A stretch of 35,746 bases of DNA from positions 1 through 35,746 of IMG/VR virus record IMGVR_UViG_3300022744_000072. One strand, written 5' to 3'. This stretch comes from a virus. Of this stretch, positions 1,603-26,662 are shown piece after piece. The notes under the pieces are model-generated. The model was not told the origin of the DNA and did not search any database. It saw nothing but the letters and a program-made list of their open reading frames with translations. The position numbers and the translations under genes are program-made. Position 1 is the first letter of the stretch; each line of letters opens with the position of its first letter.

Positions 1603-2586
1603 GTGCGGGGACTAAGTTCTGCAATGATTCCGGAGTTTGATGGGGTGTCCTGGGGGGATCCGGTGGACCTCCCGATCGAGGCTGCGACTCTCCCGTGCTG
1701 GGCGAGTGCGCGCCCGGATCGGCATGGGGAGCTGGTTTCCAGCCTGGCGGAGCACGGTCAGCGCGAGCCCGTCTACGTGCGCGAGCGCGTGGCCTTCCCG
1801 GACTCGGCGGCGACCGTCTACGAGCTCGTGGACGGGGAGCGGCGCGTTGCGGGCGCTCGCGAGCTCGGGTGGCCGACGATTCGCGCGCGCATCGTCCAGG
1901 CGCCTGCCGGCGACCGTGGTTACGCGCTGGCGGTCGCGTCCGTCATGCACGCGCGCGGGGACCGGATCCTGGCCTCGGAGGCTTCTCGCGCGCTCGTGCG
2001 CGTCGCATCGATGCCCGAGCACCGGGATCAGAATCTGGCGCAGGTCGCGCTCAGTCTGGGCCGGATCTTCGGAAGATCTCCCACGTGGGTCAAAGACCTG
2101 CTCGCGATGGAGCGCGCAGCACCCGCTGTGCGGTCGATGCTCGACCGAAAGGCGTTTCCGCGCGCGCTGGTAACGTACCTCGCGCGGATTGCCGATCACG
2201 ATCTGCAGGTCAGCTACGCGAAGCGGATCGTGTCCACCGGAATGAACATTCACGCGGCGCGAAACTTTGTCTGCGCGCGCGTTGACGCTCTCAAGATCGA
2301 CGGCGTGGCGCCGGACGTTGCGCGCAACCCTGCCAAGCCACGCGCAAAGCGCCCGAAGAAGGTCGACCTAACGGAAGCTCGCCCCGCGAACGTGCTCGAC
2401 GTGATCAGACATATCAGCGACTACGCGGACAGCGTGCTCGACATGCCGCAGGCCACCCTTACCGCGGCATTCGCTGACGATCCCGGATCCGCTCGCCTCG
2501 CCTGCACGCGCATCGGCGAATCGATCGAGGCACTCGGGATGCTCCGGCAGGCGCTACAGCGACGAGCAGATAAGGCCGCGCAGTGA
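1603..2586 (+). CDS. ParB/Spo0J-like DNA-binding protein
   Basis: The N-terminal part (about residues 20-100) is a ParB nucleotide-binding domain, with the key box DGERRVAGARELGW at residues 77-90, the region that binds CTP in ParB clamps. The middle part (about 110-230) is helical and fits the ParB DNA-binding domain, with the helix-turn-helix likely around SLGRIFGRSPTWVKDLLAMERA. A basic linker (KPRAKRPKKVD) and a helical C-terminal part follow. In plasmids such proteins spread from parS sites in DNA segregation; in phages they may instead regulate transcription or genome maintenance. No ParA gene and no obvious parS palindrome are present in the window. I chose GTG 1603 because of gaggggtg upstream; ATG 1624 is an alternative. 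Confidence 0.8.
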   Translation: MRGLSSAMIPEFDGVSWGDPVDLPIEAATLPCWASARPDRHGELVSSLAEHGQREPVYVRERVAFPDSAATVYELVDGERRVAGARELGWPTIRARIVQAPAGDRGYALAVASVMHARGDRILASEASRALVRVASMPEHRDQNLAQVALSLGRIFGRSPTWVKDLLAMERAAPAVRSMLDRKAFPRALVTYLARIADHDLQVSYAKRIVSTGMNIHAARNFVCARVDALKIDGVAPDVARNPAKPRAKRPKKVDLTEARPANVLDVIRHISDYADSVLDMPQATLTAAFADDPGSARLACTRIGESIEALGMLRQALQRRADKAAQ

Positions 2587-3401
2587 GCGACGTGGGTAGC
2601 CTGTGGACCCTCGCCTGGGTCGTGCTGGGGATCTTCGGCCTGATGGTCGTGGAGGTCGTGTTACTCGTCCGCGCGAGCCACCAGGAGCGCCTTATGCGCT
2701 CTGCTCGCCTGACGATTCCGCCGCCCGAGGATCCGGAGAAAAAGCGCAGATCGACGCAGAAAACATGGAAGTTTCAGGGCTTCTCAGCATGCGCAATATT
2801 GCAGAAGGTGATAAACCACTGCCTATGGCATTCGACGTCAACGCGCTTCCCGTCTACGCGTGCCACAAGCGCGTGCGGGCGGCGAAGATCACGGACTGGC
2901 GCTTTCTGCTGCCGGAAAAGGTCGTGCTGGAGCTCGAAGGAGGATCCGAGGCGACCGTTTGCGCGCAGTGGTTTGACGCAAAAAGGCCGCGAATCGGCGG
3001 CTATTTCGTCGTCTACGCGGACGGTTACGAGTCTTACTCGCCCGCTGGGGCGTTTGAGCTGGGGTACTCGAAAATCGAAGAAGGAGGAAGCGGTGGACAT
3101 GGTTGACGTGACGGCACCGGAAGAGAAGAAAAAGCGCAAGCCGCGTGGTCCGCGCAAGACGGCGAATGATCGCCTTCGCGAGCTCGTGGAGGTCAAGCGG
3201 TGCGAGCTTGAGAAGCTGAGTGCGAAGCACAAAGCGGTATGCGACGAGCAAACCAAGCTGTGGGCTGCGGTGGGGGCATCTCGCGCGGAGCTCGAATCGC
3301 TGGAGCGCGCGTGCGTCTCCCCTGCCCCGGCGAGCACGGTAGAGCAGGCGATTCAGGACGAAGGTCTGGACGATGACGGCTACGTCGTGGAGGCGACATG
3401 A
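2583..3401 (+). CDS. Membrane-anchored N-terminal segment whose frame stays open through two further genes
   Basis: The gene starts with GTG overlapping the ParB-like stop (GTGA). The first 60 residues look genuine: a membrane helix (LAWVVLGIFGLMVVEVVLLV) followed by a basic cytoplasmic stretch to about position 2765. From there to about 3090 the same frame gives a low-quality Arg/Ser/Thr-rich sequence, because another gene is clearly coded there in the frame one base back. The frame then rejoins the true sequence of the coiled-coil protein at 3093-3401. There is no stop in between, so a 272-residue fusion could be made. Either the first gene has lost its own stop, or the whole is translated with an overprinted middle. 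Confidence 0.45.
   Translation: MSDVGSLWTLAWVVLGIFGLMVVEVVLLVRASHQERLMRSARLTIPPPEDPEKKRRSTQKTWKFQGFSACAILQKVINHCLWHSTSTRFPSTRATSACGRRRSRTGAFCCRKRSCWSSKEDPRRPFARSGLTQKGRESAAISSSTRTVTSLTRPLGRLSWGTRKSKKEEAVDMVDVTAPEEKKKRKPRGPRKTANDRLRELVEVKRCELEKLSAKHKAVCDEQTKLWAAVGASRAELESLERACVSPAPASTVEQAIQDEGLDDDGYVVEAT
2765..3106 (+). CDS. Conserved phage protein with YFVVYADGYESYSP motif
   Basis: This product of about 113 residues is coded in a different frame from its flanks. It resembles a widespread family of small phage proteins: an N-terminal YACHKRVRAAKI segment (the CHK..V.A.KI pattern) and a C-terminal YFVVYADGYESYSPAGAF segment. In other phages the family often sits near anti-defence and accessory genes, as here, but its function is unknown. 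ATGs at 2765, 2789 and 2825 are all possible; none has a strong ribosome binding site, and the family core begins just after 2825. Its end overlaps the next start. Confidence 0.65.
   Translation: MEVSGLLSMRNIAEGDKPLPMAFDVNALPVYACHKRVRAAKITDWRFLLPEKVVLELEGGSEATVCAQWFDAKRPRIGGYFVVYADGYESYSPAGAFELGYSKIEEGGSGGHG
3093..3401 (+). CDS. Lys-rich coiled-coil protein, unknown
   Basis: The likely start is GTG 3093, five bases after a strong ribosome binding site (aaggagg, 3081-3087); ATG 3099 is an in-frame alternative. The 102-residue product has a basic N-terminus (EEKKKRKPRGPRKT), a heptad-like helix of about 45 residues (RLRELVEVKRCELEKLSAKH onward), and an acidic C-terminus. This fits a small dimeric DNA- or protein-binding factor, but no family is recognised. 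The frame is continuous with the membrane segment starting at 2583. Confidence 0.6.
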   Translation: MDMVDVTAPEEKKKRKPRGPRKTANDRLRELVEVKRCELEKLSAKHKAVCDEQTKLWAAVGASRAELESLERACVSPAPASTVEQAIQDEGLDDDGYVVEAT

Positions 3402-11301: not shown

Positions 11302-14300
11302 GTGCGCCGCGGCATAGCTGTACAGCTCGCGTACGGCTCAGGCCGCGGGCTTCTCGTGTCTGACTCCGGATCGCTGGCGCTTACCAACGATTTGATCGCA
11401 GACACGAACACGTCCGCGATCTCGTCTGCAGTGGGCGGCGCTGTGCTGGTCGACATGATCAGCAACCCAAGCCCGCGCAACATCGGCGCGGCTCCGCCAG
11501 CGATGCTAACGGGCGCGTTCGCGTTTACTTGGACGCCTTCCGTTGCGGACTCGGCGCTCGCAGATAACGACTACGTGCTCGTGAACTGGGGCCGGTCAAC
11601 GACCAGCCTCTATGTGCAGCGCGCAGGCGTGACCAACCTGGTCATTTACGACGACACGACTGGAGCCATCGCGTTTGCCTATGGCGTTTCGTTTGCTGCT
11701 GGTGTCACGGTCTCGATCTCGGTAGACCTCGCTGCGCTCACGATTTCGCTATCTGGGTTCACGGCTGGAAACGGAACGTATGCGATAGCCGCAGGTTTCA
11801 GCCCTGCCGATGGCGATGGGACGATCGACGTAGGACGCTACTTTGACGGTGCGTATCAGTCGGGCGGAACTTACGGAAACTTCACGGCAGGCGGAAGCAC
11901 AGGCGTCGGAGGAACGTCGAGCGCAGCGGGCACGCTGTCCAGTGCTGCGGCGGCCTCGACGATCGATGGATCCGCGTCCGGCCTCGCGTCCGGCAGTGCG
12001 TCTCTCTCCGCGCTTGGCACCCTCTCCGGCTCCGTAGCAGGCACGAGCTCTCCGTCCGGCGCTGCAGGCGCTCTCGCCTCTGCCAGCGGCTCCACGGGCG
12101 GCGTAGGTGCTGCAGCGGGCACGCTCGCTGCGTCTGCCCTGCTCTCTGCGACGTCACGAGGTAGAGCGCTCGGGCGCGAGCCGCGTTCTGCGTTCATTTA
12201 CTCTTACCCGCTCCCCGGCGGAATGCGGGACGCGTACGATCGGATCATCGTCGAGCCAGGCCACCCGCACACGGTCGCGGGAACCGGCGCGGAGCTGGTC
12301 GCCTACCTGTCTGTCGGCGAGGTCTCGGACACGAGCCCGGACGTCGGCAACATGCTTCCGGCGTGGATAATCGGCCGAAATGAAGGCTGGGGCTCGTCCA
12401 TCATGGACTTGTCCAGCGCTGCGTATCGTGCAGATCTCGTGGGACGCAGAGCCGCGGCGCTGTACGCGCTCGGCTATCGCTCTCTGTTCCTTGACGTCCT
12501 CGATTCGTTCCAGCTCGTGATCCTTGATGAGCCTGGACGCGCATTGCAGCGCGCTGGGCTCGTGGCTGTGATCCAGGCGCTTCGCGCGACGTTTCCCACG
12601 ATCCTAATCAATCGCGGGTTTGACGTCGTTGCGTACGTTGCTCCGTACGTTCAGGGAATGGTCGCGGAATCGTTGTTCCGCACGTACACGAGCGGCGCCT
12701 ACGCAGCGAGCACGCAGAACGACAAAGATTGGTTACTGCCGAAGCTGCTGAGTGCGCGCGACACGTACGGATTGCCCGTCACGGTGATCGACTACGTTGC
12801 GCCAGGTGATACGGCCACCGCGCAAGGCGCGATCGATTCGATCACGGCGCTCGGGTTCACCGCGTACGTGTCAGACGTCGCGCTTTCGACTGCCGGACTG
12901 GGCGGGATCGGCGCGCTCAGTATTCCGGGCACTGGCACAACGGCTTCGGCATCCGGTGCGCTGTCCGGCTCGAGCTCTGCGGCATCGTCGGCGAGCTCGA
13001 CAGCATCGGCTGCTGGGGCTCTTTCCGCGAGCGCGCTAGGCACGAGCTCTGCGACTGCTTCCACTTCCTCCGCAGGCTCGCTCGCTGCGACGTCTGCGGG
13101 CACGTCTGCGGCGTCTTCCGTGGCAACCGGGCGCGGCTCGCTCAGTGGGTCGGCGGCTGGCTCTGCGGCGCCTTCGGCAGCGGTCACAGCGCGTGGCGAC
13201 CTTGCCGGATCCGTGGCCGCGACGGGCGCGGCAAGCGCCGCGGTGTTCGCGCGCGCAGCGCTGGCCGGCGCGATCGCCGGTGCGGCTTCGGCTTCGGCAG
13301 CGGTCACAGCGCGTGGCGCGCTGTCAGGATCGTCTGGCGCTGTTGCCTCTGCGTCCGCATCACTGCTCGCACCCGGAACGCTCGCCGGACAAGCGCAAGG
13401 CGCCTCGCTGCTCACTGTGAGCGCGCTTGAATCTGGGATCCCGTTTCCTCCGCCGCACGCGCTTTCCGCCGAATATCGCAGCGTATGGCGCCAAGACTTC
13501 ACCACGCTGTCTGCGCTGTCTGTGTCCGCGAACGGACCTTGCGGAAACGGCGCTGGACTGACGACGTGGATGGCCCATAAGCCAGGCTACGGCGAATGGT
13601 TCCTTTTCAACGATCCATCGGAAAACCTCCACCCGTTCTCTCTTGATGGCCACGAGCTCACGATCCGCGTCCAGAAAGACGGCGCGCTTGCGGCGTACGG
13701 CGGATACACCGGCGGTCTGCTTTCGTCTGCAGATCATCATGGCGACGGTTTCACGCAGAAATACGGCTACTTCGAAGCCTGTATGCGCGTTCCAGGGGGG
13801 GCGAATACGTGGCCGTCCTTCTGGCTTCTCGGCGTCGAAAACATGGCCGTTCCAGGAACGCCTATTGCGGAGCTCGACGTCACAGAGCTCTACGGAAACG
13901 CCGGAGCTGGGCCAGGTTTCTCGCCTCCGGGAAACCCGAGCATTTCGATCAGCACGTGGCACAAGTGGTCAACTCCGCACGAGTTCGATCAGCACATTGT
14001 CGACGCGTCGCTTCCACCGTTTTCCACGGATCTATCGGCCGGATTCCACACTTTCGGCGTCGACGTTGGACCCACGGAAATCAAGTGGTACCTGGACCGT
14101 CAACTCTACTGGACGACGCCGGCATATCCCGAGTCGCGGCGTCCGCTTGCGGTGTTGCTCAATCTCGCGCTTGGAGGTGGCAATTACACCAACGCAACGA
14201 ATGACGGTTACGACTGGTCTCTCACTCCAGACCCGACCGATCTCAAAGTAAAGTACGTCGCCGTTTGGGCGAGTCCTGACAGCCCGAACTACACAGACGT

Positions 14301-17118
14301 TCGCACGGCTGGCGCGACTGGCGTAGGCCGCGCTACGGCATCGCTGTTTGCTGACGCATCGGTGTCTGGCTCGTCTGGCGCTTCATCTCTCGCGCGCCTG
14401 TACGTCACCGATGCTTCGTACGTCTACGATGACGGCGGCGCGCTGGTCTACGATGACAACGGCGAGCCTGTCACGATCGGTGTGACCACGGGTGCGCTGG
14501 CGTCGTCGTCCGCCGGAACGTCGCTCGCGCTCGCATCTGCGAGCGGGTCCGCTTCCCTTTCAGGTGCGTCGGGAGGCGTTGCGCTGGCGCTCGCCGTGGT
14601 CTCCGCCCGCGGAGACTTGGCCGCAACATCCGTGGCGACGGGCGCGGCATCCTCCCAGATGGCCGCATCTGGGGCGCTTTCCGCGGCCAGCGGCGCAGCG
14701 TCCACGGCTACCGCTGTGGCGACTGGGCGCGGCGCGCTCGCTGCGACACTCGGAGCGGCCGGAGCTGCGTCGGCTCTGCTGTCCGCGGTCGGTGCGCTCG
14801 CAGTGTCTGCGCTTGCCGGAACCGCGTCTGCGTCTGGCTCGCTGGTCGCGCGTGGCGCACTCGCGGGCACTTCCGGCGCGACGTCAGGCGCGTCCGCTGT
14901 CGGGTTTGCGCAGGCCACGGGCGGCGCCCTGGCCTCCGGCACGAGCGCTGCGTCCGCCACGATCTTCGCGCTATCCGCCGGCACGTGCTCTGCGTCCGGC
15001 ATCGCATCGGCAGCGGCCACGCTCGTAGGTCTGCGTGCGGCGTCGGGCTCGTCTGCCGGAGCGGCTAGTAGCAGCGGCGCTTCGCTCGCGGGCGCAGGCT
15101 TGCTCGGCGGTAGCGCGCTTGCGCTCGCCGGTTCGAGCGCAAGCCTTGGCGCTTCGGGCGCGTTGGCCGCATCTGCCGCAGGATCCGCGTCCGCATCTGC
15201 GTCTGCAGGGTTGTCTGGTGCGCTAGCGTGTGTCTCTGCCGGCATTGCATCTGCGTCCGCGAGCATGACGGCGCGCGGCGCACTGCTCGGGTCTGTCAGT
15301 GGTTCGAGTTCTGCACAGGTCGCTTCCGGATCTTCGATCGGAACGCTTGCGACGGGCGCAGGTTCCACGATCCTGCTCGACCTCGCCACGAATCCCGCGC
15401 CGCATCACTTCGCGGTGTGTCCTCCCGCGATTCTCTCGGGGCGCTGGTCGTTCACGTGGACGCCTGCAGTTGCGGATACAGCGCTCGCGCCAAACGATTA
15501 CGTGCTCGTCTCGTGGGGACCGTCAGACACGAGTCTCTACGTCCAGCGCAGCGCGGTCACGAACCTCGGCCTGTACGATCAGACGACGGGCACATGGGCA
15601 TGGGTTACTGGCGTAAGCTTCTCCGCTGGACAGCCCGTCACGATCGCGACGGACACGCAGGCGCAGCAGGTCACGCTATCTGGCTTCGCGTCGGGGAATG
15701 GCACGTACGCAACGACCGCGTTTTCACCTGCCGATGGCGATGGATCGGTCGACGTCGGCCAGTATTTCGACGGCAACTACGCGAGCGGCGGAACGTTCTC
15801 GAACTTCACTGCGCCGGGCTACGGCGTCGGTGGGACGAGCGCGGTCACTGGTACGCTCACGGTTGGCGCTCAGGTCGTACTGATTGCCGGCAACGCGTCC
15901 GGCATGGGTTACGCGACTGCGGCGCCAGCGCTCACGATGGCCGGCTATCTGGTCGGCACGTCGAGCGCATATGGCCGCGGTGAAGAGTCTGTAACCCTGA
16001 GTGGGCTCGGGGCGCTGGCTGCTGCTGCGTCTGGCACGGGCACGGCGCAGGCAACCGGGATCGCACTGCAGACCGGAGGCGCTCTCGCGGTAGGCACGTC
16101 GAGCGCTTTCGCGGCCATCGGCGCGCGCGTGGAGATTTCGGCTGCTGCGTCTGGCACGAGCGCTGCGTCCGCGCTGATTCTCGCTCAGATCGCGGTATAC
16201 GGCGCAGCTGCCGGAAGCGCGGCCGTGCCTGCTAGCCTGTACGGTCTGGGCTCGCTAGCGGGCGTTCTCGCGTCGCAGTCTGGCGCCACTGCGTCCCCGA
16301 GCGCGCGCGGGCAGCTCGCCGGCACGTCCGCTGGCGGAGGCCTCGCTATCGCGGCCACTGGTGGGTCTGTGCCTGGCGTGGGCACGGTTGCCGGCATGAG
16401 CTCCGCCGCTGCCGCGCTGGTCGGCTCCGGCGATCTCGTGTCGGTGGTCGCAGGCTCGAGCTCTGCGTCTGTCGCCGGTAGCGGCGCTGTGCCGGCGCAG
16501 GGGGCCGTCTCGGGCACGGGCGCGGCCTCTGCGTCGGTCTCTGGCCGCGGGGCGCTCCTGGCCAGCGTGGGAGGCGCTGGCGACGCATCGCTCGCCGGCA
16601 CGGTTGGAGTCGTGGTCTCTGGCGCCGCTGGCGCGAGCTCCGCTGCGTCCGGCGTGATCGTCGGTGTGGGCGCTGTCGCCGGAGCCGCACGAGGCAAGGC
16701 GCTGGCACTGGCCGCGACGCTGGGGGGTGTCGCCGGAGCTGTCGAGATCGCGGGATCCGCCGGCGCATCTGGCGAGCTCTCGGCACTGGCCGATCTCTCG
16801 GGTGAGATCTCGGGCGCCTCCGTGGCGCATGCGTCCGGCGCTTCCGCGGCACTGGCGACGTCGACGGCTTCGGGCAGCGCGTCAGCGATCGCTGAGTTGA
16901 TCGCGCTCGGTGGCGTCGCTGCCGCGGCGCACGGCACAGGGGCTGCGGCTGCCACCGCGCAAGGATCGTTCGAAGCGTCCGGTTTGTCGTCCGCTCACGC
17001 AGTGGCGTGGCTCGAGACACCGCCCGGTGAGCTCTCGTGGGTTCCTGTGTCGATCGAGATCTCGCCAGAGACGATACAGGCAGGCGATTTTGTGATCGCA
17101 GATGAGTTTGCGATCTGA
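11302..17118 (+). CDS. Giant fibre protein with GH114-like and GH16 polysaccharide hydrolase domains
   Basis: This 1938-residue protein is built from alternating modules. Residues about 46-197 and 1354-1505 are two copies of one beta-rich module (each with DYVLV.WG...TSLYVQR and FSPADGDG). Residues about 297-535 resemble GH114, with VAYLSVGEVSD and FLDVLDSFQ. Residues about 720-996 are a GH16 domain with the catalytic ELDVTE at 857-862 (Glu857, Asp859, Glu862). The linkers are Ala/Ser/Gly-rich; one is an exact series of 20-residue repeats (552-709). The whole suggests a tail spike or fibre that cuts host exopolysaccharide. The start GTG has only a weak ribosome site. No frameshift is visible, and the final 30 residues form a non-repetitive tail. 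Confidence 0.8.
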   Translation: MRRGIAVQLAYGSGRGLLVSDSGSLALTNDLIADTNTSAISSAVGGAVLVDMISNPSPRNIGAAPPAMLTGAFAFTWTPSVADSALADNDYVLVNWGRSTTSLYVQRAGVTNLVIYDDTTGAIAFAYGVSFAAGVTVSISVDLAALTISLSGFTAGNGTYAIAAGFSPADGDGTIDVGRYFDGAYQSGGTYGNFTAGGSTGVGGTSSAAGTLSSAAAASTIDGSASGLASGSASLSALGTLSGSVAGTSSPSGAAGALASASGSTGGVGAAAGTLAASALLSATSRGRALGREPRSAFIYSYPLPGGMRDAYDRIIVEPGHPHTVAGTGAELVAYLSVGEVSDTSPDVGNMLPAWIIGRNEGWGSSIMDLSSAAYRADLVGRRAAALYALGYRSLFLDVLDSFQLVILDEPGRALQRAGLVAVIQALRATFPTILINRGFDVVAYVAPYVQGMVAESLFRTYTSGAYAASTQNDKDWLLPKLLSARDTYGLPVTVIDYVAPGDTATAQGAIDSITALGFTAYVSDVALSTAGLGGIGALSIPGTGTTASASGALSGSSSAASSASSTASAAGALSASALGTSSATASTSSAGSLAATSAGTSAASSVATGRGSLSGSAAGSAAPSAAVTARGDLAGSVAATGAASAAVFARAALAGAIAGAASASAAVTARGALSGSSGAVASASASLLAPGTLAGQAQGASLLTVSALESGIPFPPPHALSAEYRSVWRQDFTTLSALSVSANGPCGNGAGLTTWMAHKPGYGEWFLFNDPSENLHPFSLDGHELTIRVQKDGALAAYGGYTGGLLSSADHHGDGFTQKYGYFEACMRVPGGANTWPSFWLLGVENMAVPGTPIAELDVTELYGNAGAGPGFSPPGNPSISISTWHKWSTPHEFDQHIVDASLPPFSTDLSAGFHTFGVDVGPTEIKWYLDRQLYWTTPAYPESRRPLAVLLNLALGGGNYTNATNDGYDWSLTPDPTDLKVKYVAVWASPDSPNYTDVRTAGATGVGRATASLFADASVSGSSGASSLARLYVTDASYVYDDGGALVYDDNGEPVTIGVTTGALASSSAGTSLALASASGSASLSGASGGVALALAVVSARGDLAATSVATGAASSQMAASGALSAASGAASTATAVATGRGALAATLGAAGAASALLSAVGALAVSALAGTASASGSLVARGALAGTSGATSGASAVGFAQATGGALASGTSAASATIFALSAGTCSASGIASAAATLVGLRAASGSSAGAASSSGASLAGAGLLGGSALALAGSSASLGASGALAASAAGSASASASAGLSGALACVSAGIASASASMTARGALLGSVSGSSSAQVASGSSIGTLATGAGSTILLDLATNPAPHHFAVCPPAILSGRWSFTWTPAVADTALAPNDYVLVSWGPSDTSLYVQRSAVTNLGLYDQTTGTWAWVTGVSFSAGQPVTIATDTQAQQVTLSGFASGNGTYATTAFSPADGDGSVDVGQYFDGNYASGGTFSNFTAPGYGVGGTSAVTGTLTVGAQVVLIAGNASGMGYATAAPALTMAGYLVGTSSAYGRGEESVTLSGLGALAAAASGTGTAQATGIALQTGGALAVGTSSAFAAIGARVEISAAASGTSAASALILAQIAVYGAAAGSAAVPASLYGLGSLAGVLASQSGATASPSARGQLAGTSAGGGLAIAATGGSVPGVGTVAGMSSAAAALVGSGDLVSVVAGSSSASVAGSGAVPAQGAVSGTGAASASVSGRGALLASVGGAGDASLAGTVGVVVSGAAGASSAASGVIVGVGAVAGAARGKALALAATLGGVAGAVEIAGSAGASGELSALADLSGEISGASVAHASGASAALATSTASGSASAIAELIALGGVAAAAHGTGAAAATAQGSFEASGLSSAHAVAWLETPPGELSWVPVSIEISPETIQAGDFVIADEFAI
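11437..11892 (+). repeat. Duplicated fibre module, N-terminal copy
   Basis: This codes about 152 residues that are repeated at 15361-15819. Shared landmarks include TWTP followed by ADSALADNDYVLVNWG, TSLYVQRAGVTNL, and FSPADGDGTIDVGRYFDG. The two copies differ at many positions, so the duplication is old. The fold is probably a lectin-like beta sandwich. Confidence 0.8.
12955..13428 (+). repeat. Tandem 20-residue (60-base) Ala/Ser/Gly repeats in the fibre
   Basis: Seven consecutive units of exactly 20 residues (60 bases) begin at 12955, each starting with G-x-L-[SA] (one unit starts with A), such as GALSGSSSAASSASSTASAA and GSLSGSAAGSAAPSAAVTAR. A partial eighth unit ends at 13428. A 27-base stretch at 13172-13198 recurs exactly at 13292-13318, two units later, which indicates recent unit exchange. 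Looser units of similar length follow in 14491-15335. Confidence 0.85.
15361..15819 (+). repeat. Duplicated fibre module, C-terminal copy
   Basis: This is the second copy of the module seen at 11437-11892, with TWTP, ADTALAPNDYVLVSWG, TSLYVQRSAVTNL and FSPADGDGSVDVGQYFDG. It is followed by the last Ala/Gly-rich stretch of the protein. The copy closes the span that contains both glycosidase domains. Confidence 0.8.
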
Positions 17119-17142: not shown

Positions 17143-17991
17143 ATGCCAGCACACAGCACGCTAGACCAGGATCATGCGTGGAGCGCCACGGCTTACGCGT
17201 CCGCGCTCAAGTTCGACAAACGAAGCCGCGTGCTTCCTGAGCAGCGAATCGAGGGGCCGGTGTCGATCACGGTTGACGCCACGAACGCGCGCGCAGGCGG
17301 AGAGATACACGCGAGGTTTGTGGGTAACGGCGTGGACACACCGTCGTTCGCTGGCTTGTTCGAGCACAGCAGTAGCAGCGGATACGACGTCAGAAACGGG
17401 ATCGTGAACACGCTCCGCGCTTGGTATGACGGCGTTTCCTACTGGTATGCGTGGGGTAAGAGGGTTGGAGCGGCTCCTGTCGCGCTGGTCCTCTCGTCTC
17501 TTAGCAACGTCACGAACACATCGGGGACGTACTCGCGCAACGCTGGCGGATGGGACCTTACGAACTGCTTCGCTGGCGCGTCGAACCTGTCGCTATCAAT
17601 AAGCGGATTCTTCGAGGCACGATACGGTTCGTTCTCTGCGTCAAGCGTGCCGTGCTTCTACACCTCTCCATCTTCCGGAGCAGTGACTTTCGACAGCGCG
17701 AACACGTATGGCGTGTACGCGGAAAACGGAACCGCTGCGTACAAGATCGTTCTGGGAGGCGGAGGCAATGCGCCGAACCTCAACACGAGTAAGGTAGCCG
17801 CTGCTGGTGACCGCCTGAGAATCGGACGAACCGGAACAACCTCGTGGGTTGACGTGTCTCAGGATGGCGGCGCGACGTGGACGCGCATCGATTCGCGAGC
17901 CACGGTTTCCACCGTGCAGAGGTGGGCAAACGTTGCGTTCTACGGACCCGGCACGACGTTTTTGGGGCTCGACGGGTCTGGCATCGCGTAA
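17143..17991 (+). CDS. Putative tail fibre or receptor-binding protein
   Basis: The 282-residue product is rich in beta strands, Gly, Ser and Asn, with no enzymatic motif. Its central part (WYDGVSYWYAWGKRVGAAP, then GVYAENGTAAYKIVLGGGG) and the last third (GDRLRIGRTGTTSWVDVSQDGGATWTRI) look like a carbohydrate-binding sandwich. It follows the giant fibre after 24 bases and precedes the gpF-type gene, so it is probably the last gene of the adhesion block. The ATG has gtggag about 12 bases upstream. Confidence 0.55.
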   Translation: MPAHSTLDQDHAWSATAYASALKFDKRSRVLPEQRIEGPVSITVDATNARAGGEIHARFVGNGVDTPSFAGLFEHSSSSGYDVRNGIVNTLRAWYDGVSYWYAWGKRVGAAPVALVLSSLSNVTNTSGTYSRNAGGWDLTNCFAGASNLSLSISGFFEARYGSFSASSVPCFYTSPSSGAVTFDSANTYGVYAENGTAAYKIVLGGGGNAPNLNTSKVAAAGDRLRIGRTGTTSWVDVSQDGGATWTRIDSRATVSTVQRWANVAFYGPGTTFLGLDGSGIA

Positions 17992-18000
17992 TGGGGAATC

Positions 18001-19650
18001 GTGGTGGCTGACAAAGACGTAAGACCCGGACCCGTTCCCGCTGACGTGCTCGCGTATTGGCGCGCGAAGAAGCTGTCTCCGCGCTTCGACTGGCGCGACG
18101 TGTGGCTAGAGGAGCACGATCTAGAGTTCACCGCGGCAAAGATCATGCGCCGCGACGTTCTTGCAGCGATGAAAAACGAGCTAGATCGGGCGATCGCCGA
18201 TGGCGTTCCGTTCGATCGCTGGGCGAAGCAGGTAGAGCCGCGATTCCGTGAGATGGGATGGTGGGCGGAGCACGAGGTGATTGACCCTGAGACCGGCGCG
18301 CGCGCCACGGTAGACCCACCCTCTCGGCTTCGGCGGATCTACGATACAAACATCCGAATGGCGCGCGCTGTTGGCCAGTACGACCGCGCGCAGAAGAACA
18401 AGCGCTTTCGGCCCTACGTGCTGTATCAGGTCGGACCGTCTCACCGACATCGGCCGGAGCACTTGGCGCTGCACGGCGTAATGGTACACATTGACGATCC
18501 GTTTTGGTCGCATGCATGGCCGCCAAATGGATGGGGCTGCTTCTTGCCTGGAACGGTAGTCACGGGCGACTTTGTAGGCGGATCAAAAGCCTGGTATTCT
18601 GGGGAGGCCATCGAGATCAAGACTGATGGCGGCGCCTCGCTCTCCGTTACGCCCAATCACCCCATACTTACCTCGCGCGGATGGGTTGCGGCGGGGTCTC
18701 TCAAGGTAGGCGACGACTGCGTTAGCAACAGCGGCGAAGTCGTACTCGTACGCGCATCCGGTTCCCCACAGTCTCCCGGAGGGGCAGTACGCAATCAGGA
18801 TGTCCCAGCCTGCGTGGAGGATGTATTCAAGGCGCTCTCTGCGCATCGACGTGGAACGGCACAGATCTCCCCTTTGGACTTCCACGGCGAGGCGTCTCGG
18901 TTCGTGGGCCAAGTCGACGTTGTGGGGACCTATGTTGAGCTGGCTGACCAGCGCGAATCCACTCGTCTTCAGTTCTCGGGAGAGAGCTCGTTCCCGGCTC
19001 CGTATTCCAGTCTGCAGCTCGTAGACGCGAGCGGCTTGGTAGTGCCGCTCCTCCACCCCAGCAGTGCGGCCCGTAGCCGCAGAAAAGGCTGGCCTGGCGA
19101 CTTCTATCCGCTGGTCTCGCGTGAGCTTCCCGAATCTGTTGTATGCGGCTTCGGATCTGCCGCGCAAAGGAATGTTGTGTCTGTGGAGAAGGCGGGCAAC
19201 GGCAGTTCTGGACACTCCAAGTTCCTTGGAGAGCTCCAAGATAGAGGATCCGGCAACGTATCTCTTGATAAGGTGGTCAGTGTTAGGCGGTTCCCATATC
19301 GCGGACATGTGTACGACCTCGAAACTAGATCTGGATGGCTTTTGGCCAACGGAATTGCGGCTAGCAACTGCAAGTGCTTCGTTCAGGTTCTCAGCGCGCG
19401 CGAAGCGGACCGCATCGAGTCGGAAGGCATCCAGGCGCCCGATCCCGAGCCGATCCTAGACGACGAGGGTAACCCCACCGGGCACGTGGTGGATCGGCGC
19501 GTGCAGGTTCGCCGGTCTGCTCCTGTGCTGCCCCTCGTTCCGTGGGAAAACAAGCGCGCGGGAACAATCGAGCTCGTGCCGCAGGGCATTGATCCAGGAT
19601 TCCACTACACCCCTGGTGAGGGTCGCGCGCGCGCGCTCAAGTACCCGTGA
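18001..19650 (+). CDS. Mu gpF-like head morphogenesis protein, interrupted by an intein
   Basis: gpF-type proteins are minor head proteins bound to the portal that take part in head assembly. The 549-residue precursor contains a 277-residue intein (residues 180-456), leaving a 272-residue product. The N-extein has the family landmarks DWRDVWLEEHDLEFTAAKIM and a conserved HRHRPEHLALHGVMVHIDD then WPPNGWG. After splicing, NGWG joins CKCFVQVLSAREADRIE, restoring the NGWGC.C motif of the family. The intein therefore sits at the most conserved point of the protein. The start is GTG with gggga upstream. The gene ends by overlapping the start of the free-standing Hint gene. Confidence 0.9.
   Translation: MVADKDVRPGPVPADVLAYWRAKKLSPRFDWRDVWLEEHDLEFTAAKIMRRDVLAAMKNELDRAIADGVPFDRWAKQVEPRFREMGWWAEHEVIDPETGARATVDPPSRLRRIYDTNIRMARAVGQYDRAQKNKRFRPYVLYQVGPSHRHRPEHLALHGVMVHIDDPFWSHAWPPNGWGCFLPGTVVTGDFVGGSKAWYSGEAIEIKTDGGASLSVTPNHPILTSRGWVAAGSLKVGDDCVSNSGEVVLVRASGSPQSPGGAVRNQDVPACVEDVFKALSAHRRGTAQISPLDFHGEASRFVGQVDVVGTYVELADQRESTRLQFSGESSFPAPYSSLQLVDASGLVVPLLHPSSAARSRRKGWPGDFYPLVSRELPESVVCGFGSAAQRNVVSVEKAGNGSSGHSKFLGELQDRGSGNVSLDKVVSVRRFPYRGHVYDLETRSGWLLANGIAASNCKCFVQVLSAREADRIESEGIQAPDPEPILDDEGNPTGHVVDRRVQVRRSAPVLPLVPWENKRAGTIELVPQGIDPGFHYTPGEGRARALKYP
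18538..19368 (+). other. Intein in the gpF-like protein, with antisense nuclease gene inside it
   Basis: The intein starts with Cys180 (CFLPGTVVTG, block A) and ends with Asn456 before Cys+1 (AASN, block G). Block B is SLSVTPNHPILT with Thr217 and His220; block F is HVYDLETRSGW. It fits a canonical Cys1 intein, except that the penultimate residue is Ser instead of His. No LAGLIDADG or HNH motif is coded on the sense strand. Instead bases 18583-19308 also code an endonuclease on the opposite strand. The middle part contains a DFHGEASRFVGQVDVVG segment that is shared with the next gene. Confidence 0.88.
18583..19308 (-). CDS. Antisense HTH/Vsr-like homing endonuclease inside the intein
   Basis: Read on the minus strand from ATG 19308 to the stop at 18583, this gives 241 residues. 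The N-terminus is a helix-turn-helix, DHLIKRYVAGSSILELSKEL then GVSRTAVARLLHRHNIPLRG and RSEA, as in phage homing endonucleases. The C-terminal half has the Vsr-like (EDxHD) pattern: NVDLA, LAVEV, then RLEYILHAGWDILIAY and VVAYLERPRRNPSA. The usual GGNWH.yGRH stretch after VEV is here RGDLCRSTSM, so the catalytic His residues may be lost. A gagg lies eight bases before the ATG on the minus strand. Its codons are in exact register with the sense intein codons. The gene lies wholly inside the intein, suggesting it drove intein homing. Confidence 0.78.
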   Translation of the reverse strand: MSAIWEPPNTDHLIKRYVAGSSILELSKELGVSRTAVARLLHRHNIPLRGRSEAAYNRFGKLTRDQRIEVARPAFSAATGRTAGVEERHYQAARVYELQTGIRSRERALSRELKTSGFALVSQLNIGPHNVDLAHEPRRLAVEVQRGDLCRSTSMRRERLEYILHAGWDILIAYCPSGRLWGTGCAYEYDFAAVANAVVAYLERPRRNPSARGKYGVIGRNGERGAAISLDLDGLPRIPGF

Positions 19651-20303
19651 GCGTAGCTCCGGAAACGACCTTCACGGGCTGCCTGCGAGGCGCAGCGCGC
19701 GGCATCTACACCGGCCCGGTGCGTACCCTGGTCACCGCTTCGGGCGGCTTGCTGCGGCTCTCTCTGCGCCACCCGATTGCGACGCGTCGCGGATGGGTTG
19801 CCGCGGGCGATCTGAGCACTTCGGACGCTGCGCTCGTGCACGTGGGAGAGCTCGGGCTACCACGCGACCAGCTTCCGCCGTCCGGCGATGAGCTGTGGCG
19901 GACGTGGTCTCTCAGGCACGGCGGATCGTGGCGCTTGTTGGCGCCTAGGCGCGCCTTTCACGGCGAGGGGCGGCGCTTCTACGGGTCAATCGAAGTGGTC
20001 GGCTCCTATCGCCTGCTAGGCACCGCGCGCGTGCGGCACGAGGCGAGGAACTCGGGGGCTCCCGCCGTGGTCTGCTACTCGCGTGCTGTGGGGATGGCGC
20101 ACGTGGCATCGACTGCGATCCTCGCTGTGGGCGACGAGGGTTGGCCGGAGCTCGCGCCAACGCTAATGCGCGGGTCGGATGGGCGCTTCGCGCTGGATCC
20201 GATCGTAGCGATCTACGAGTCGCCTTACGTGGGTACGGTGTACGACGTCGAGGGTGACAGCGGTTGGTGTTGGGCATCTGGCTTCGCGCTGCGTGATTCC
20301 TGA
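19647..20303 (+). CDS. Free-standing Hint (intein-like) protein with almost no extein
   Basis: This 218-residue product aligns over its whole length with the intein of the preceding gene: SVAPETTFTG against CFLPGTVVTG, RHPIATRRGWVAAGDL against NHPILTSRGWVAAGSL, FHGEGRRFYGSIEVVGSY against FHGEASRFVGQVDVVGTY, and VYDVEGDSGW against VYDLETRSGW. It starts Met-Ser, so Ser2 stands at the Cys1 position, and it ends Asp-Ser, standing for Asn and Cys+1. The block B His is kept (His42). It is thus a complete Hint domain with one residue at each end outside it. Its antisense frame has stops (sense CTA at 19857, TCA at 19986, CTA at 20016, CTA at 20163), so no nuclease remains. GTG overlaps the previous stop. 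Confidence 0.8.
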   Translation: MSVAPETTFTGCLRGAARGIYTGPVRTLVTASGGLLRLSLRHPIATRRGWVAAGDLSTSDAALVHVGELGLPRDQLPPSGDELWRTWSLRHGGSWRLLAPRRAFHGEGRRFYGSIEVVGSYRLLGTARVRHEARNSGAPAVVCYSRAVGMAHVASTAILAVGDEGWPELAPTLMRGSDGRFALDPIVAIYESPYVGTVYDVEGDSGWCWASGFALRDS

Positions 20304-20306
20304 GAG

Positions 20307-20328
20307 CTGTGGCCTAGCTCGTCCAGTG
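20307..20328 (+). repeat. Intergenic 20-base repeat, copy 2
   Basis: This copy of ctgtggcctagctcgtccag starts three bases after the stop of the free-standing Hint gene. The protease/scaffold gene may start at ATG 20330, directly after the repeat, or at ATG 20354, which would give the same 24-27 base spacing as the other copies. No Shine-Dalgarno sequence is visible before either ATG. Confidence 0.85.
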
Positions 20329-20353
20329 CATGCCGGCGCAGGCTCTGCCCTGC

Positions 20354-21475
20354 ATGCCAGGAAAAGCCGAGCTGGTTGGAGTGTCAGGCGACGGGCGGGA
20401 TGTTGTCCGGCTGCTCTGCTCGCTTGGTTCCGGTGCCGATGGGACACCGCAGGAGTGGATCCATATCCTCCCTGGCGGTCCGATCGTGGTCGCGCGCGAC
20501 GAGCGCGTGTTCCAGGTCACTGACGCGGAGAGCGTACTCGCGGCTAGTGAGCTCCCGATGCTCGTGGATTGGGAGCACGAGTCCGAGAACCCTTGGGGTG
20601 GTTCCACACGTGCGGCTGGTTGGATTGAGGAGCTCTCCGCGTCAGACGGATCAGAGCGCGCGGCAGGTCTATGGGGGCGCGTTCGTTGGACCGGAAAAGG
20701 CGGGGAAGACGTCGCGCAGGGCGCGTATCGCTTCCTCTCTCCGGTCGTGGTGATCGATTCCGAGACGCGAGACGCACAGCAGATCGTGAGCGTCGCGCTT
20801 ACGAATCGCCCGGCTCTGCGCATGCAGGAAATCGGCAGGTTTCGCGAGCAAATGTCAGCTCGCATTGGCGTGGCGCTCGACGGTGAGCGCGCGCAAGCGC
20901 ACTCGAAAAGTGGTGAGGCAATGACCCCAGCTCAGAGAAAGGCGCTTTGCGCCGCGTTCTCGCTCGCGGAGACCGTGAGCGATGACGAGATCGTGGAAGC
21001 AGCCAAGAAGCACAGCGCCGCGCGCGTGTTGCTTGAGCAGACCACCGAGCAGTTTTCGTCAGCGAGCGCTTCGCTTGCGCAGGTAAACGCTCGCGTTGTG
21101 GAGCTCGAGACGCAGCTTTCCGAGGCTCGCAAGGCTGGCGAGGCTGCTCGGCTCGAGGCGGAGATCGCGGAGCTGTTCCAGGCGAACAAGAACCGGATCA
21201 CGCCTGCGATGGCCGAGGGCTTCCGCAAGATGTTCGCGAAGTCGCCCGAGACGCTTGAGGCGTTCAAGGAGTTCACGCTCCCGAACCTTCCCGAGATCGG
21301 CGCACCCGCTCCGGCTTCGATTCCTGCGACTGCCCCGAGTTCGGCGAGTTCGGTTGCCGAGCGCGATCGCCTCGCTCTGCGTCAGCGCGGGATGACCGAC
21401 GCGCAGATCGAAGCGGCAGAGAAATACCAGGCTGAGGTCCGCGCTCGTCGCGCTCTCGGCGGAGAGGTGGACTGA
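20354..21475 (+). CDS. Mu gpI-like head protease/scaffold
   Basis: gpI-type proteins mature the prohead and carry the scaffold in the C-terminal half. The product has the family landmarks EWIHILPGGPI, then LPMLVDWEHESENPWGGSTR and AAGWIEEL, then YRFLSPVVVIDSETR and VSVALTNRPALRM. After a linker the C-terminal part (from about MTPAQRKALC, 20921) is a coiled coil (LAQVNARVVELETQLSEARK), as in scaffold Z, and an internal start there could give a separate scaffold protein. I prefer ATG 20354 (373 residues) because it places the repeat at its usual distance; ATG 20330 adds eight residues. Confidence 0.88.
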   Translation: MPGKAELVGVSGDGRDVVRLLCSLGSGADGTPQEWIHILPGGPIVVARDERVFQVTDAESVLAASELPMLVDWEHESENPWGGSTRAAGWIEELSASDGSERAAGLWGRVRWTGKGGEDVAQGAYRFLSPVVVIDSETRDAQQIVSVALTNRPALRMQEIGRFREQMSARIGVALDGERAQAHSKSGEAMTPAQRKALCAAFSLAETVSDDEIVEAAKKHSAARVLLEQTTEQFSSASASLAQVNARVVELETQLSEARKAGEAARLEAEIAELFQANKNRITPAMAEGFRKMFAKSPETLEAFKEFTLPNLPEIGAPAPASIPATAPSSASSVAERDRLALRQRGMTDAQIEAAEKYQAEVRARRALGGEVD

Positions 21476-24089: not shown

Positions 24090-24652
24090 CGCTCGCTAGC
24101 ACGCTACTCCGCACGATGGAGTCCACACTTCGCGCGCGGCTCGGAGAAGCTGCCGCGGAAGTGCGGATCCACGACGGCGATCCCGGCGTGGATCCGAAGA
24201 ACGTGGTTCGCGGCAAGGATCCGCTTGTCCTCGTGACCTGCCTCGGCGCGAACGTCGAGCCTGACGGTTACTCGGTCGCGGATGGCGTGTTCGCTGCGTT
24301 CGTATTCACGCGCGCGAACACGCGCGAAGAAGGCGAGCCGCTCTCGCGCGGAATCACCGCCGCGAACCTCGCTTTCCTCGTGGCCGCGATCGTCGAGCAA
24401 GAGCGCTGGGGCGGACTTTCCGTGCGTCGTGCGAGCCGGATTCGCCTGCGCAACGAGCACGCGGAGCGCAACACGAAGGACCTCGGGTGGGCGATTTGGT
24501 CCGTGCTTTGGACGCAGCCCTTCGAGGTCGAGATTTCAGACGTGAACAGCTTCGGGCGTCTGGGGTCCATTCACTACACGTTCGCGATGGGCGACGAGTT
24601 GACGCCTGACGCATACGCAACGGTCGAGTTTCCACCCGTGGGGGGACAATGA
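24086..24652 (+). CDS. Mu gp37-like tail completion protein (DUF1834)
   Basis: The 188-residue product has the gp37 pattern: a helical N-terminus, LVLVTCLGANVEP, then LAFLVAAIVEQERWGGL, RIRLRNEHAERNTKDLG then WAIWSVLWTQPF, and a beta-rich end. It is coupled to gpG by an ATGA overlap and to the gp38-like gene by four bases. The role is in the neck or tail end. Confidence 0.8.
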   Translation: MTLASTLLRTMESTLRARLGEAAAEVRIHDGDPGVDPKNVVRGKDPLVLVTCLGANVEPDGYSVADGVFAAFVFTRANTREEGEPLSRGITAANLAFLVAAIVEQERWGGLSVRRASRIRLRNEHAERNTKDLGWAIWSVLWTQPFEVEISDVNSFGRLGSIHYTFAMGDELTPDAYATVEFPPVGGQ

Positions 24653-24840
24653 GTCAGGCTAACAGAATGTATGTGAAGCCGCGCGATGGGCTCGTGATTC
24701 GAGACCCGTTCAGCAAGGCAGTGATTCCACCCGAGGGAATGGAATGCGTGGCCTACGGGTCGCACCTTACCGTGTTGCGCAAGCACATTGCGGTGGGTGA
24801 CCTGATCGAGATCCCCCAGCTCGCTCACGTGGAGGACTGA
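24649..24840 (+). CDS. Mu gp38-like small protein (DUF2635)
   Basis: This 63-residue product matches the DUF2635 pattern: MYVKPRDGLVIRDPFSKAVI then PPEGMEC, and a C-terminal HIAVGDLIE. It is always found just before the tail sheath gene in Mu-like phages, as here. Its function is unknown. ATG overlaps the gp37 stop. Confidence 0.88.
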   Translation: MSQANRMYVKPRDGLVIRDPFSKAVIPPEGMECVAYGSHLTVLRKHIAVGDLIEIPQLAHVED

Positions 24841-24843
24841 GAA

Positions 24844-26298
24844 ATGGCTGTCTCGTTCAACGAAATGCCGAGCGCGTACCGCGTGCCCGGTACGTACGTC
24901 GAGGTCGACGGATCGAACGCGCTTGGCGCGCAGGTTCCTGAGCCTCAGCGCATCCTGATCATCGGCTACCGCTCGACGACTGGCACTGCGACGCAGGGCG
25001 TGATCTTCCCCGTGGTCGGCCCGAGTGGTGGCGATGGCCCTGCGGGCGCAGATTCGCAGCTTGCGGAGATGCTCCGCAAGTTCAAGCGGCTCAACAACTC
25101 CGCGCGTGTCTATGGCATGGGCCTGGACGAAGCCGGCGGCTCTGCGGCTGCGTCCGGCTCGTTCACGTTCACGGGCACGGTCACGCGCGAGACCTCGCTT
25201 ACCGTGCGAATCGCTGATGTCCGCGTGTCCACGCTGGTCGCGGTCAATACCGCTGCCGCGGCTGTCGCGGCCCAGCTTCAGACGGCGATTGCCGGCGCTT
25301 CTCGCCTGCCGATGACCTCGAGTGTCACCACGAACGTGGTCACTCTCACCGCACGCCACAAGGGAACTGCGGGGAACGAGCTCACGATCGCTGTCGAGGC
25401 GCTTCCGCCCGGTCTGACGGTCGCGACCGTGCAGCCGAGCGGCGGAGCCACTGACCCTGACATGAACCTCGCGGTTACGGCGCTCGACGAAGACACGTAC
25501 GACACGATCGTCACTGGCATCGCCAGCGCTTCCGCAATGCTGATTCTCGAGGCGGAGATCGCGCGCCGCTGGGGGCCACTCGTGAAGCAGCCCGGCATGG
25601 TGCTCGCTGGCAAGGCGGGAACCCATGGCCAGCTCACCACGTACGGAGACACGCGAAACTCGCAGTTCTCCACCGTGATCGGCTCGGGCAAGTCGCCAAC
25701 CCCTCCGTGGGTGTGGGCCGCTCAGGCTGCCGCGCGAGACGCGCAGCGCAACGACACGATGAACCCGAACCGCCCGCGCCATGGCCTTACGCTGCCTGAT
25801 TGCGAGGCGCCGGCAAAGGTCGACATGTTCGACGCTGCGCAGCGCAACTTGCTGCTGTTCGACGGAATCTCGACCTTCAAGACTGACAAGTCTGGTCGCG
25901 TGACGATCGAGCGGCTGATCACGACGTACCAGCTCAACGCAGCGGGCCAGCCAGACGCTACGTATCTCGCGATCGAGACGCAGCGCAACTTGTCGCGCCT
26001 CTACCACGAAGTCCTCACGCTCGGCAGCAAGTACGCGGACTATCTCCTCGCTCCTGATGGCAAGGATCCGCCTGACCAGGGTGTTCCGATGGTCACCCCG
26101 AAGCTGTTCCGTGGCGAGCTGATCGCGCTGAACGATTCGTGGATCCGTCGCGGTCTGACGAAGGACGCTACCGGGTTCGCGAACGCGCTGATCGTCGAGA
26201 TCAACGAACTGGATCCGGAGCGCCTTGACGTCAACATGGCCCCGCGCCTCGTGGGTGGTCTCGTGACCTTGCCCGTCAAGATCTCCTTCCAGCTCTGA
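24844..26298 (+). CDS. Tail sheath protein (Mu gpL-like)
   Basis: gpL forms the contractile sheath. The 484-residue product has the family N-terminus (VSFNEMPSAYRVPGTYVEVD), a duplicated-looking insert domain in the middle, and the conserved C-terminal part (YLAIETQRNLSRLYHEVL; KLFRGELIALNDSWIRRGL; NMAPRLVGGLVTLPVKISF) that builds the interlocking sheath handshake. The length is normal. The ATG lies three bases after the gp38 stop. Confidence 0.93.
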   Translation: MAVSFNEMPSAYRVPGTYVEVDGSNALGAQVPEPQRILIIGYRSTTGTATQGVIFPVVGPSGGDGPAGADSQLAEMLRKFKRLNNSARVYGMGLDEAGGSAAASGSFTFTGTVTRETSLTVRIADVRVSTLVAVNTAAAAVAAQLQTAIAGASRLPMTSSVTTNVVTLTARHKGTAGNELTIAVEALPPGLTVATVQPSGGATDPDMNLAVTALDEDTYDTIVTGIASASAMLILEAEIARRWGPLVKQPGMVLAGKAGTHGQLTTYGDTRNSQFSTVIGSGKSPTPPWVWAAQAAARDAQRNDTMNPNRPRHGLTLPDCEAPAKVDMFDAAQRNLLLFDGISTFKTDKSGRVTIERLITTYQLNAAGQPDATYLAIETQRNLSRLYHEVLTLGSKYADYLLAPDGKDPPDQGVPMVTPKLFRGELIALNDSWIRRGLTKDATGFANALIVEINELDPERLDVNMAPRLVGGLVTLPVKISFQL

Positions 26299-26311
26299 GG
26301 GGTAAGGTTCA

Positions 26312-26662
26312 ATGCAACAGACTGGCAAAGTAACGGTCAAGGTCAACGGTAGCTCGCTGCGTAGCAAGACTGGCTCGGGATCGATGATTCCGGGTGGACT
26401 CACGCGCGAAGACAACTCAATGACTGATCAAGGCGTGTTCATGTACAAGGAAAAGTACGAACCCGGCGAGATCAAGTGCGTCGTCATGCACTGCGCAGAC
26501 ACTGACGTGCGCGGCATGCAGGACAGTAAGGAAGTGACGGTCTCGTTCGAGGCTGACACCGGCGCTGTCTACACCATGGCGAACGCCGTCTGCACGAAGG
26601 TCGGTGAGACGAAGGATGGCGAGGTCGAGGTCACGTTCCGCGGCGATCCGATCAAGTCGTGA
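26312..26662 (+). CDS. Tail tube protein (Mu gpM-like)
   Basis: The 116-residue product matches the phage tail tube family: VTVKVNGSSLRSKTGSGSM, a loop with DNSMTDQGVFMYKEKYEPGE, then strands EIKCVVMHCADTD and KEVTVSFEADTGAVYTMANA, and a final GEVEVTFRGDP. This makes the inner tube inside the sheath. The ATG follows the sheath gene after 13 bases with a gaggggtaagg site. Confidence 0.92.
   Translation: MQQTGKVTVKVNGSSLRSKTGSGSMIPGGLTREDNSMTDQGVFMYKEKYEPGEIKCVVMHCADTDVRGMQDSKEVTVSFEADTGAVYTMANAVCTKVGETKDGEVEVTFRGDPIKS

Follow-up and report, generated by a model that had tools for sequence, protein, structure and literature searches.

A Predicted Homing Endonuclease Gene Encoded Antisense Within a Phage gpF Intein

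Introduction

In canonical homing endonuclease inteins such as PI-SceI, TliVMA and the mycobacteriophage TerL inteins, the HINT splicing domain harbors an endonuclease at the customary position separating block B from block F, and the elements show a disjunct distribution with intein-free alleles. The endonuclease of an intein is described in review as being translated in fusion with the intein (PMC3943268). Other arrangements are known outside inteins. Antisense His-Cys homing endonuclease genes (HEGs) occur in nuclear rDNA group I introns, where the HEG lies antisense to the host gene within a self-splicing element; for one of them, I-DsqI of Didymium squamulosum L2066, expression and activity have been shown (PMC9548176). 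In the ShiLan methylase, an HNH homing endonuclease is hidden in a stop-free insertion that spreads between phages (PMC11855218). Here, a 35,746-nucleotide stretch of viral DNA (IMG/VR virus record IMGVR_UViG_3300022744_000072, positions 1 to 35,746; in the following "the window") is analyzed, in which the gene of the gpF/MuF minor head protein contains an intein and the strand opposite this intein contains a second open reading frame (ORF). The minus-strand ORF is very probably a genuine homing endonuclease gene, combining a helix-turn-helix (HTH) with an EDxHD/Vsr-like nuclease, and its product is predicted to cleave DNA and to promote homing.

An Open Antisense Frame in the gpF Intein

The antisense ORF spans 726 of the 831 base pairs of the intein and is in exact register with the sense frame, sense codon positions 1, 2 and 3 pairing with antisense positions 3, 2 and 1. 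Among the 277 sense codons of the intein, the sole TCA, TTA or CTA, at codon 16, forms the antisense stop, and a GAGG is found 8 nucleotides ahead of the antisense ATG (CTAGTTTCGAGGTCGTACACATG). An earlier note on this DNA, made from the sequence alone, had described these features and proposed the antisense gene, resting the claim on family motifs, and its coordinates, register, sizes, motifs, GAGG spacing and absence of TCA, TTA and CTA up to the antisense stop were all reproduced upon recomputation. Its caution that long antisense frames occur by chance in this DNA proved well placed, as an antisense run of 241 codons has a P of about 0.065 at this phage's TCA/TTA/CTA codon rate and three other genes of the window contain longer runs (484, 389 and 354 codons). 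ORF length was accordingly rejected as evidence for a gene, and the claim therefore rests on comparison with relatives, in which open frames alone were not relied on and extein controls and substitution patterns were added. The 484-codon gene at 24844-26298 (plus strand), which is devoid of TCA, TTA and CTA and leaves a 613-residue antisense ORF open (24574-26415, minus strand), most likely reflects composition.

Distribution of the Antisense Gene

A tblastn search with the minus-strand protein matched 141 phage records, 104 of them with alignments that cover 80% or more of the query, the best E value being 2e-20, with hosts including Pseudomonas, Salmonella, Gordonia, Cronobacter, Vibrio, Pantoea, Escherichia and Mycobacterium. 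Strong matches sit under genes annotated as head morphogenesis/MuF or hypothetical, while the weak matches in Bacillus and Staphylococcus records align with the HTH alone. Motif scans with alignments yielded 211 relatives on viral contigs, of which 80 were kept, a further 10 in bacterial genomes, including records titled Terriglobus, Chloroflexi, Micromonospora and Atlantibacter, and seven more. At 111 of 111 loci found with the minus-strand protein, the plus strand is open in the same register and the gene lies opposite an intein; the other two registers usually contain several to 28 stops. A profile of the N-terminal intein part matches 112 of 112 plus-strand ORFs (the window included) with E values of at most 1e-3, ten of these ORFs having been used to build it. 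The reverse scan, which used only intein blocks A-B, returned 593 relatives, and the antisense endonuclease is present in 79 of the best 80, the sole exception (L153) being cut by the contig end. Going by the exteins of these ORFs, 288 antisense stops would be expected across 18,412 overlap codons, and one is seen; the antisense frame is open in AT-rich phages as well. Both the protein search and the survey of other inteins had been suggested in the earlier note, which would have taken an antisense frame broken in all other phages as evidence against its proposal. The relatives are instead open, apart from the individual decayed copies described below.

Close relatives of the EDxHD family in sense orientation or as free-standing genes were not found among the 111 loci recovered with the antisense protein, where only distant DUF559/Vsr/HTH proteins appeared. 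The intein of the Pseudomonas MR14 helicase was considered as a further case and rejected: its antisense frame is broken and no such gene is present.

Selection on the Two Strands

Differences between relatives follow the minus-strand codon. Over 64 pairs, which are non-independent so that the percentages stand without a P-value, the differences in the overlap are distributed over sense positions 1, 2 and 3 as 52.7, 15.9 and 31.4%, as opposed to 24.5, 19.8 and 55.7% in the exteins and 33, 12 and 55% in blocks A-B. The antisense wobble is therefore the most variable position of the overlap. The comparison of Cronobacter ES2 with Atlantibacter (L004/L098) gives 58/8/17 in the overlap and 33/18/74 in the exteins. 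Furthermore, the codons of invariant nuclease residues shift at their own wobble, N130 being encoded by AAC or AAT (30/29), D132 by GAC or GAT (38/21) and E143 by GAA or GAG (45/14), and those of E106 are mostly GAA and GAG (27/27). As a consequence of these wobble changes at N130, D132, E143 and E106, the opposite sense residue alternates between V/I, V/I, F/L and F/L, respectively. Opposite E143, the codon TTT, which would keep the sense Phe and turn the Glu into Lys, is never seen. The minus strand of the overlap is under purifying selection. The possibility that the antisense similarity is a shadow of sense conservation was rejected on the positional substitutions and the minus-strand-synonymous nuclease codons, and also on the HTH, which is equally conserved, yet lies opposite a sense frame that gives no fold.

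For the plus strand, an AlphaFold2 model of the intein is confident in the HINT core and in residues about 90-137, which hold the motif D[FL]HG[DE], and assigns a predicted local distance difference test score (pLDDT) below 50 to residues 140-169, 171-185 and 187-225, with values near 40 across most of 140-225; the alignment underlying this model carries the antisense constraint, so that it is not independent of the antisense gene. Differences over sense residues 138-225 are mostly at sense position 1. In conserved fourfold-degenerate columns of the nuclease up to residue 120, the wobble is free (17 columns, commonest letter with a mean share of 0.50). A141 is GCC in 58 of 58 cases, V142 is GTG in 53 of 53 and A134 is GCC in 38 of 42, by which the sense residues Gly, His and Gly are fixed, and stop avoidance does not account for the codon fixation of A141 or V142. 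V217 (GTG in 45 of 45) likewise fixes the His of block B, as does G220 the opposite Thr, and the substitution pattern at block B is that of the plus strand (0.34/0.12/0.54). Both frames of this antiparallel overlap are thus selected, the antisense frame along most of its length and the sense frame in block B and in the His-Gly that faces A141-V142. The earlier note had supposed that selection acts on both proteins at once, which applies to block B, block F and the sense His-Gly opposite the catalytic AVE and does not extend to the remainder, where the plus-strand protein changes freely except for stop avoidance and is mostly predicted to be disordered. In the family alignment, the His and Gly of the sense motif D[FL]HG[DE] (18877-18891, plus strand) are fixed at the codon level independently of the antisense gene.

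Predicted Fold of the Antisense Protein

The AlphaFold2 model of the antisense protein, built with 49 sequences, reaches a pLDDT of 93.1 and a predicted template modeling score of 0.78 and shows an N-terminal HTH, helices and then a nuclease domain. The family profile matches 3hrl (2.1e-6) and 3r3p, the domain of the EDxHD homing endonuclease I-Bth0305I (3.6e-6), and Pfam MTES_1575 matches 39 of 59 members while DUF559 matches 12. Fold comparison by VIA relates the model to Vsr (1cw0; Z 9.7, root-mean-square deviation (rmsd) 2.8 over 112 residues), 3hrl (Z 9.3, rmsd 1.9 over 89 residues) and I-Bth0305I (3r3p; Z 8.6, rmsd 2.9 over 92 residues). The catalytic acidic residues D132 and E143 are present in 59 of 59 members and E106 in 54 of 59, and the conserved pattern of the family, NxD...AVE(V/I), is nearer to DUF559/MTES_1575 than to a literal E-D-x-H-D. 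These matches support the prediction that the minus-strand protein consists of an HTH and a nuclease of the Vsr/EDxHD fold, as the earlier note had read it from motifs, and they supply the nuclease homology whose absence would have spoken against that reading. Five of the relatives (L005, L006, L010, L014 and L135) encode antisense endonucleases in which the N-terminal HTH appears to be duplicated, possibly lengthening the DNA target.

Start Signals in Block F

On the minus strand, the sense residues G-H-V-Y-D-L-(Q/E) of block F read (G)GAGGTCRTANACATG. The block F His codon is CAT, the complement of the antisense ATG, at 57 of 63 loci (23.3 expected from extein usage), and the Leu codon is CTC at 53 of 62 (17.2 expected). 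One of GGAG, GAGG or AGGA is present at 41 of 67 loci as opposed to 12.0 in synonymous recodings, for which each ORF's own codon usage was applied. A second survey, sharing some contigs with the first, found the His in 52 of 61 cases, as CAT in 40 and CAC in 12 (antisense ATG and GTG, respectively), and CTC in 42 of 48. The block F His is missing if the antisense gene has decayed or is of another kind, namely in the decayed window copy P0003 (GTVYDV) and in the Gordonia phages Barsten and Lennon. The computed counts show block F (GHVYDL) doubling as the putative ribosome-binding site and start codon of the antisense gene.

Gordonia Alleles and a Second Predicted Nuclease Family

The Gordonia phages Barsten, SchottB, Lennon, Sitar, Nordenberg and Thing3 contain an intein at the MuF site with an antisense protein that includes the motif AFIDGEG. 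In tblastn searches this protein matches phage proteins annotated as DNA, HNH or LAGLIDADG endonucleases (E 2e-6 to 0.2; cyanophage PP 2e-6, CcrRogue 4e-5), and its match to Pfam LAGLIDADG_3 is weak (E 0.26). Between Barsten and Lennon, differences in the core of the protein fall at sense positions 1, 2 and 3 in a ratio of 43/4/9 and hence at the antisense wobble. Viral contigs searched with the LAGLIDADG-type protein yielded no relatives. Judged from their sequences, two predicted nuclease families have become antisense residents of inteins.

At this same site, Gordonia phages whose genes share 90-98% identity with Stultus in the flanks have either no intein or one of three inteins, whose N-parts are about 35-45% identical and of which two carry divergent EDxHD endonucleases and one the LAGLIDADG type. 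Intein-free alleles are found in Stultus, Jabberwocky and, by match length, in many others; the 405 extra bases of Jabberwocky were considered as an intein and rejected, as they are not an intein at this site. Kewpiedoll and Fosterous have exteins that are identical over 113 amino acids and endonucleases that are 35% identical; this pair alone was used, since a general correlation of extein and endonuclease distances was dropped because many extein alignments are too short. Just before the site, the intein-bearing alleles (L009, L010, L118, L119, L121 and L206) read GTGATCAAC and two intein-free alleles (L205 and L204) read GTCATCAA[T/C], a difference which could be due to co-conversion or to a difference in the target site.

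The Host Gene and Its Intein

The features of the locus are compiled in Table 1. The intein site is exact within an otherwise intact host protein. Intein-free homologues of the window gpF are found in B23 and Kp4866-3, which read NGYG/NGWG^CKC across the junction, and a further intein-free allele in Stultus reads VIN^CRC. The intein has the sequence hallmarks of class 1 (C1, TPNH, GHVYDLE and SN followed by C), splicing itself being predicted; the Intein_splicing match of the sense protein falls just under the Pfam cut-off. In the AlphaFold2 model, residues 1-60 and 241-277 have a pLDDT of about 92-98, and the fold matches are the RadA and RecA inteins (E 5e-4). A Pfam scan of the sense protein gave no match to an endonuclease family in the intein part. 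With sense residues of about 140-225 modeled as disordered, the window intein is predicted not to be one with an in-frame homing endonuclease domain. A gene for a Mu-like I protease follows downstream of gpF (20330-21475). Just upstream of the gpF gene, 11302-17118 (plus strand) encodes an Ala/Ser-rich protein of 1938 residues with glycoside hydrolase domains GH114 (5.5e-14) and GH16 (2.1e-7).

Table 1. Features of the gpF locus of the window and of the antisense gene in two Gordonia phage inteins.
Feature	Position	Strand	Details
gpF/MuF minor head protein precursor with intein, 549 aa	18001-19650	+	Pfam Phage_Mu_F 2.1e-15, Intein_splicing 1.1e-7
N-extein	18001-18537	+	part of gpF/MuF precursor
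C-extein	19369-19647	+	part of gpF/MuF precursor
Class 1-type intein, 277 aa, 831 bp	18538-19368	+	Cys1 (block A), TPNHP (block B), GHVYDLE (block F), terminal Asn then Cys+1 (block G)
Intein block B, TPNHPILT	18649-18672	+	opposite endonuclease C-terminal tail
Sense motif DFHGE, residues 114-118	18877-18891	+	faces A141-V142-E143 of the endonuclease; both strands constrain its codons
Sense residues 138-225, predicted disordered filler	18949-19212	+	opposite HTH and linker of endonuclease; pLDDT, sense-position-1 differences
Intein block F, GHVYDLE	19303-19323	+	doubly used: putative antisense ribosome-binding site and start
Predicted antisense homing endonuclease gene, 241 codons, EDxHD/Vsr-like	18583-19308	-	ATG start, TGA stop
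Predicted nuclease domain, residues 101-207	18688-19008	-	invariant N130, D132, E143; nearly invariant E106, A141, R159
Predicted HTH region, residues 10-60	19129-19281	-	Pfam HTH_58 7.8e-5; helices 10-18, 23-30, 34-43
Putative antisense start signals	19306-19320	-	ATG (complement of block F His codon CAT, 19306-19308) and GAGG (19317-19320), 8 nt apart, both within block F
Second HINT-like ORF, decayed intein paralogue (P0003)	19647-20303	+	directly after gpF
Putative antisense LAGLIDADG-type endonuclease, MuF intein of Barsten and Lennon (L118, L119)	2516-3103	-	unrelated to window enzyme

Alternative Explanations

Several observations weigh against a homing endonuclease gene on the minus strand. 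The VIA Z scores of 8.6-9.7 barely exceed the usual noise, the Foldseek comparison with the PDB is weak (best E 0.058, to the I-Bth0305I domain) and the Pfam matches of the window's own protein sit under the curated cut-offs. Moreover, some members have TAT, TTT, AAA or CCG codons at the block F position and hence no clear ATG or GTG, and no sigma-70-like promoter was recognized in 17900-20400, in a promoter scan that was uninformative.

The minus-strand gene could be real and yet serve in a role other than homing, as a Vsr-like repair nuclease, an HTH transcriptional regulator or a factor excluding competing phages, given that Vsr is the top structural match, an HTH is present and the activity is a prediction. 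Such a role is very improbable, however, as every copy of the antisense protein that was found resides in an intein at a single class of gene site, Gordonia phages have a different homing-type nuclease family in this position, and alleles with and without the antisense gene segregate at one site, as homing predicts.

Alternatively, the antisense gene may once have encoded a homing endonuclease and now be unexpressed in this phage, its frame surviving through recent acquisition. Decayed copies do exist. Directly after gpF, P0003 retains sense similarity to the intein, FHGE included (alignment score with the intein ORF 216, shuffle maximum 62), and has lost the cysteines of blocks A and G, while its antisense frame has four stops, no antisense start and a score of 40 (shuffle maximum 57). 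L146 and L159 are intact inteins with stops in the antisense frame; such decayed antisense genes within intact inteins would fit the usual homing cycle. Together with the lack of a recognizable promoter, these copies lend the relic some plausibility, but in the window copy the ORF is intact, no invariant residue is missing, and an ATG and a GAGG are present, which makes a relic highly improbable.

That a chance antisense ORF in GC-rich DNA accompanies an intein functional on the plus strand alone is scarcely credible, for although long runs do arise by chance and block B conservation does produce antisense similarity in the endonuclease C-terminal tail, substitutions follow the minus-strand codon with nuclease residues varying only at its synonymous sites, antisense stops are virtually missing, and the antisense protein has a confident fold and nuclease homology.

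Discussion

For the homing endonuclease gene, the following course can be envisaged. A minus-strand transcript would be made and the endonuclease translated independently of the gpF precursor; during co-infection the enzyme would cut intein-free gpF alleles, repair would copy the intein together with its embedded gene, and protein splicing would restore gpF. The plus-strand reading would be tolerated as a stop-free and largely disordered insertion in the intein, except at block B, block F and the His-Gly. It is likely that antisense placement prevails throughout a large and old clade of phage inteins, in which the genes for splicing and homing share one stretch of DNA in opposite directions, block F provides the ribosome-binding site and start of the endonuclease and the catalytic strand lies opposite a selected His-Gly, and that unrelated nuclease families came to be arranged in this way on two or more occasions, probably since the endonuclease is then made apart from the interrupted late structural protein.

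Separated from the intein in this manner, the nuclease appears to gain a timing and dose of its own which are not tied to the late head protein. The family also represents a widespread and deeply diverged antiparallel overlapping gene pair whose constraints can be resolved strand by strand at single codons, and the natural allele series of Gordonia phages (empty, two EDxHD inteins and one of LAGLIDADG type) opens homing to direct testing. The antisense gene usually escapes annotation and lies under the head morphogenesis gene in most of the records examined. In a small number of GenBank records, that of Salmonella phage PK2 (L007, 2408-3217) for instance, the ORF is already listed as "hypothetical protein" beside the head morphogenesis gene, and most omit it.

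A full-text literature search returned no description of an antisense endonuclease in an intein, with possible overlap in a 2025 actinophage intein preprint ("non-canonical architecture") and in "Non-canonical inteins" (Gorbalenya, 1998); going by its title and its citation for overlapping reading frames (PMC11855218), the preprint may cover some actinophage cases. Compared with the canonical inteins (PMC5050341), whose interrupted HINT domain and intein-free alleles it shares, the window family has its endonuclease as a separate gene on the other strand. I-Bth0305I resembles the window enzyme in its Vsr-like nuclease fold and is the enzyme of a mobile intron (PMC3943268; PDB entry 3r3p), whereas all copies found of the window family lie opposite inteins, and its proteins begin with an HTH. 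The element of I-DsqI is an intron of an rRNA gene whose sense strand is untranslated; in the window family, both strands must be open reading frames. Finally, the ShiLan insertion is unspliced and its HNH endonuclease is out-of-frame (PMC11855218), while the window family runs antisense to a complete intein and has a conserved Shine-Dalgarno sequence.
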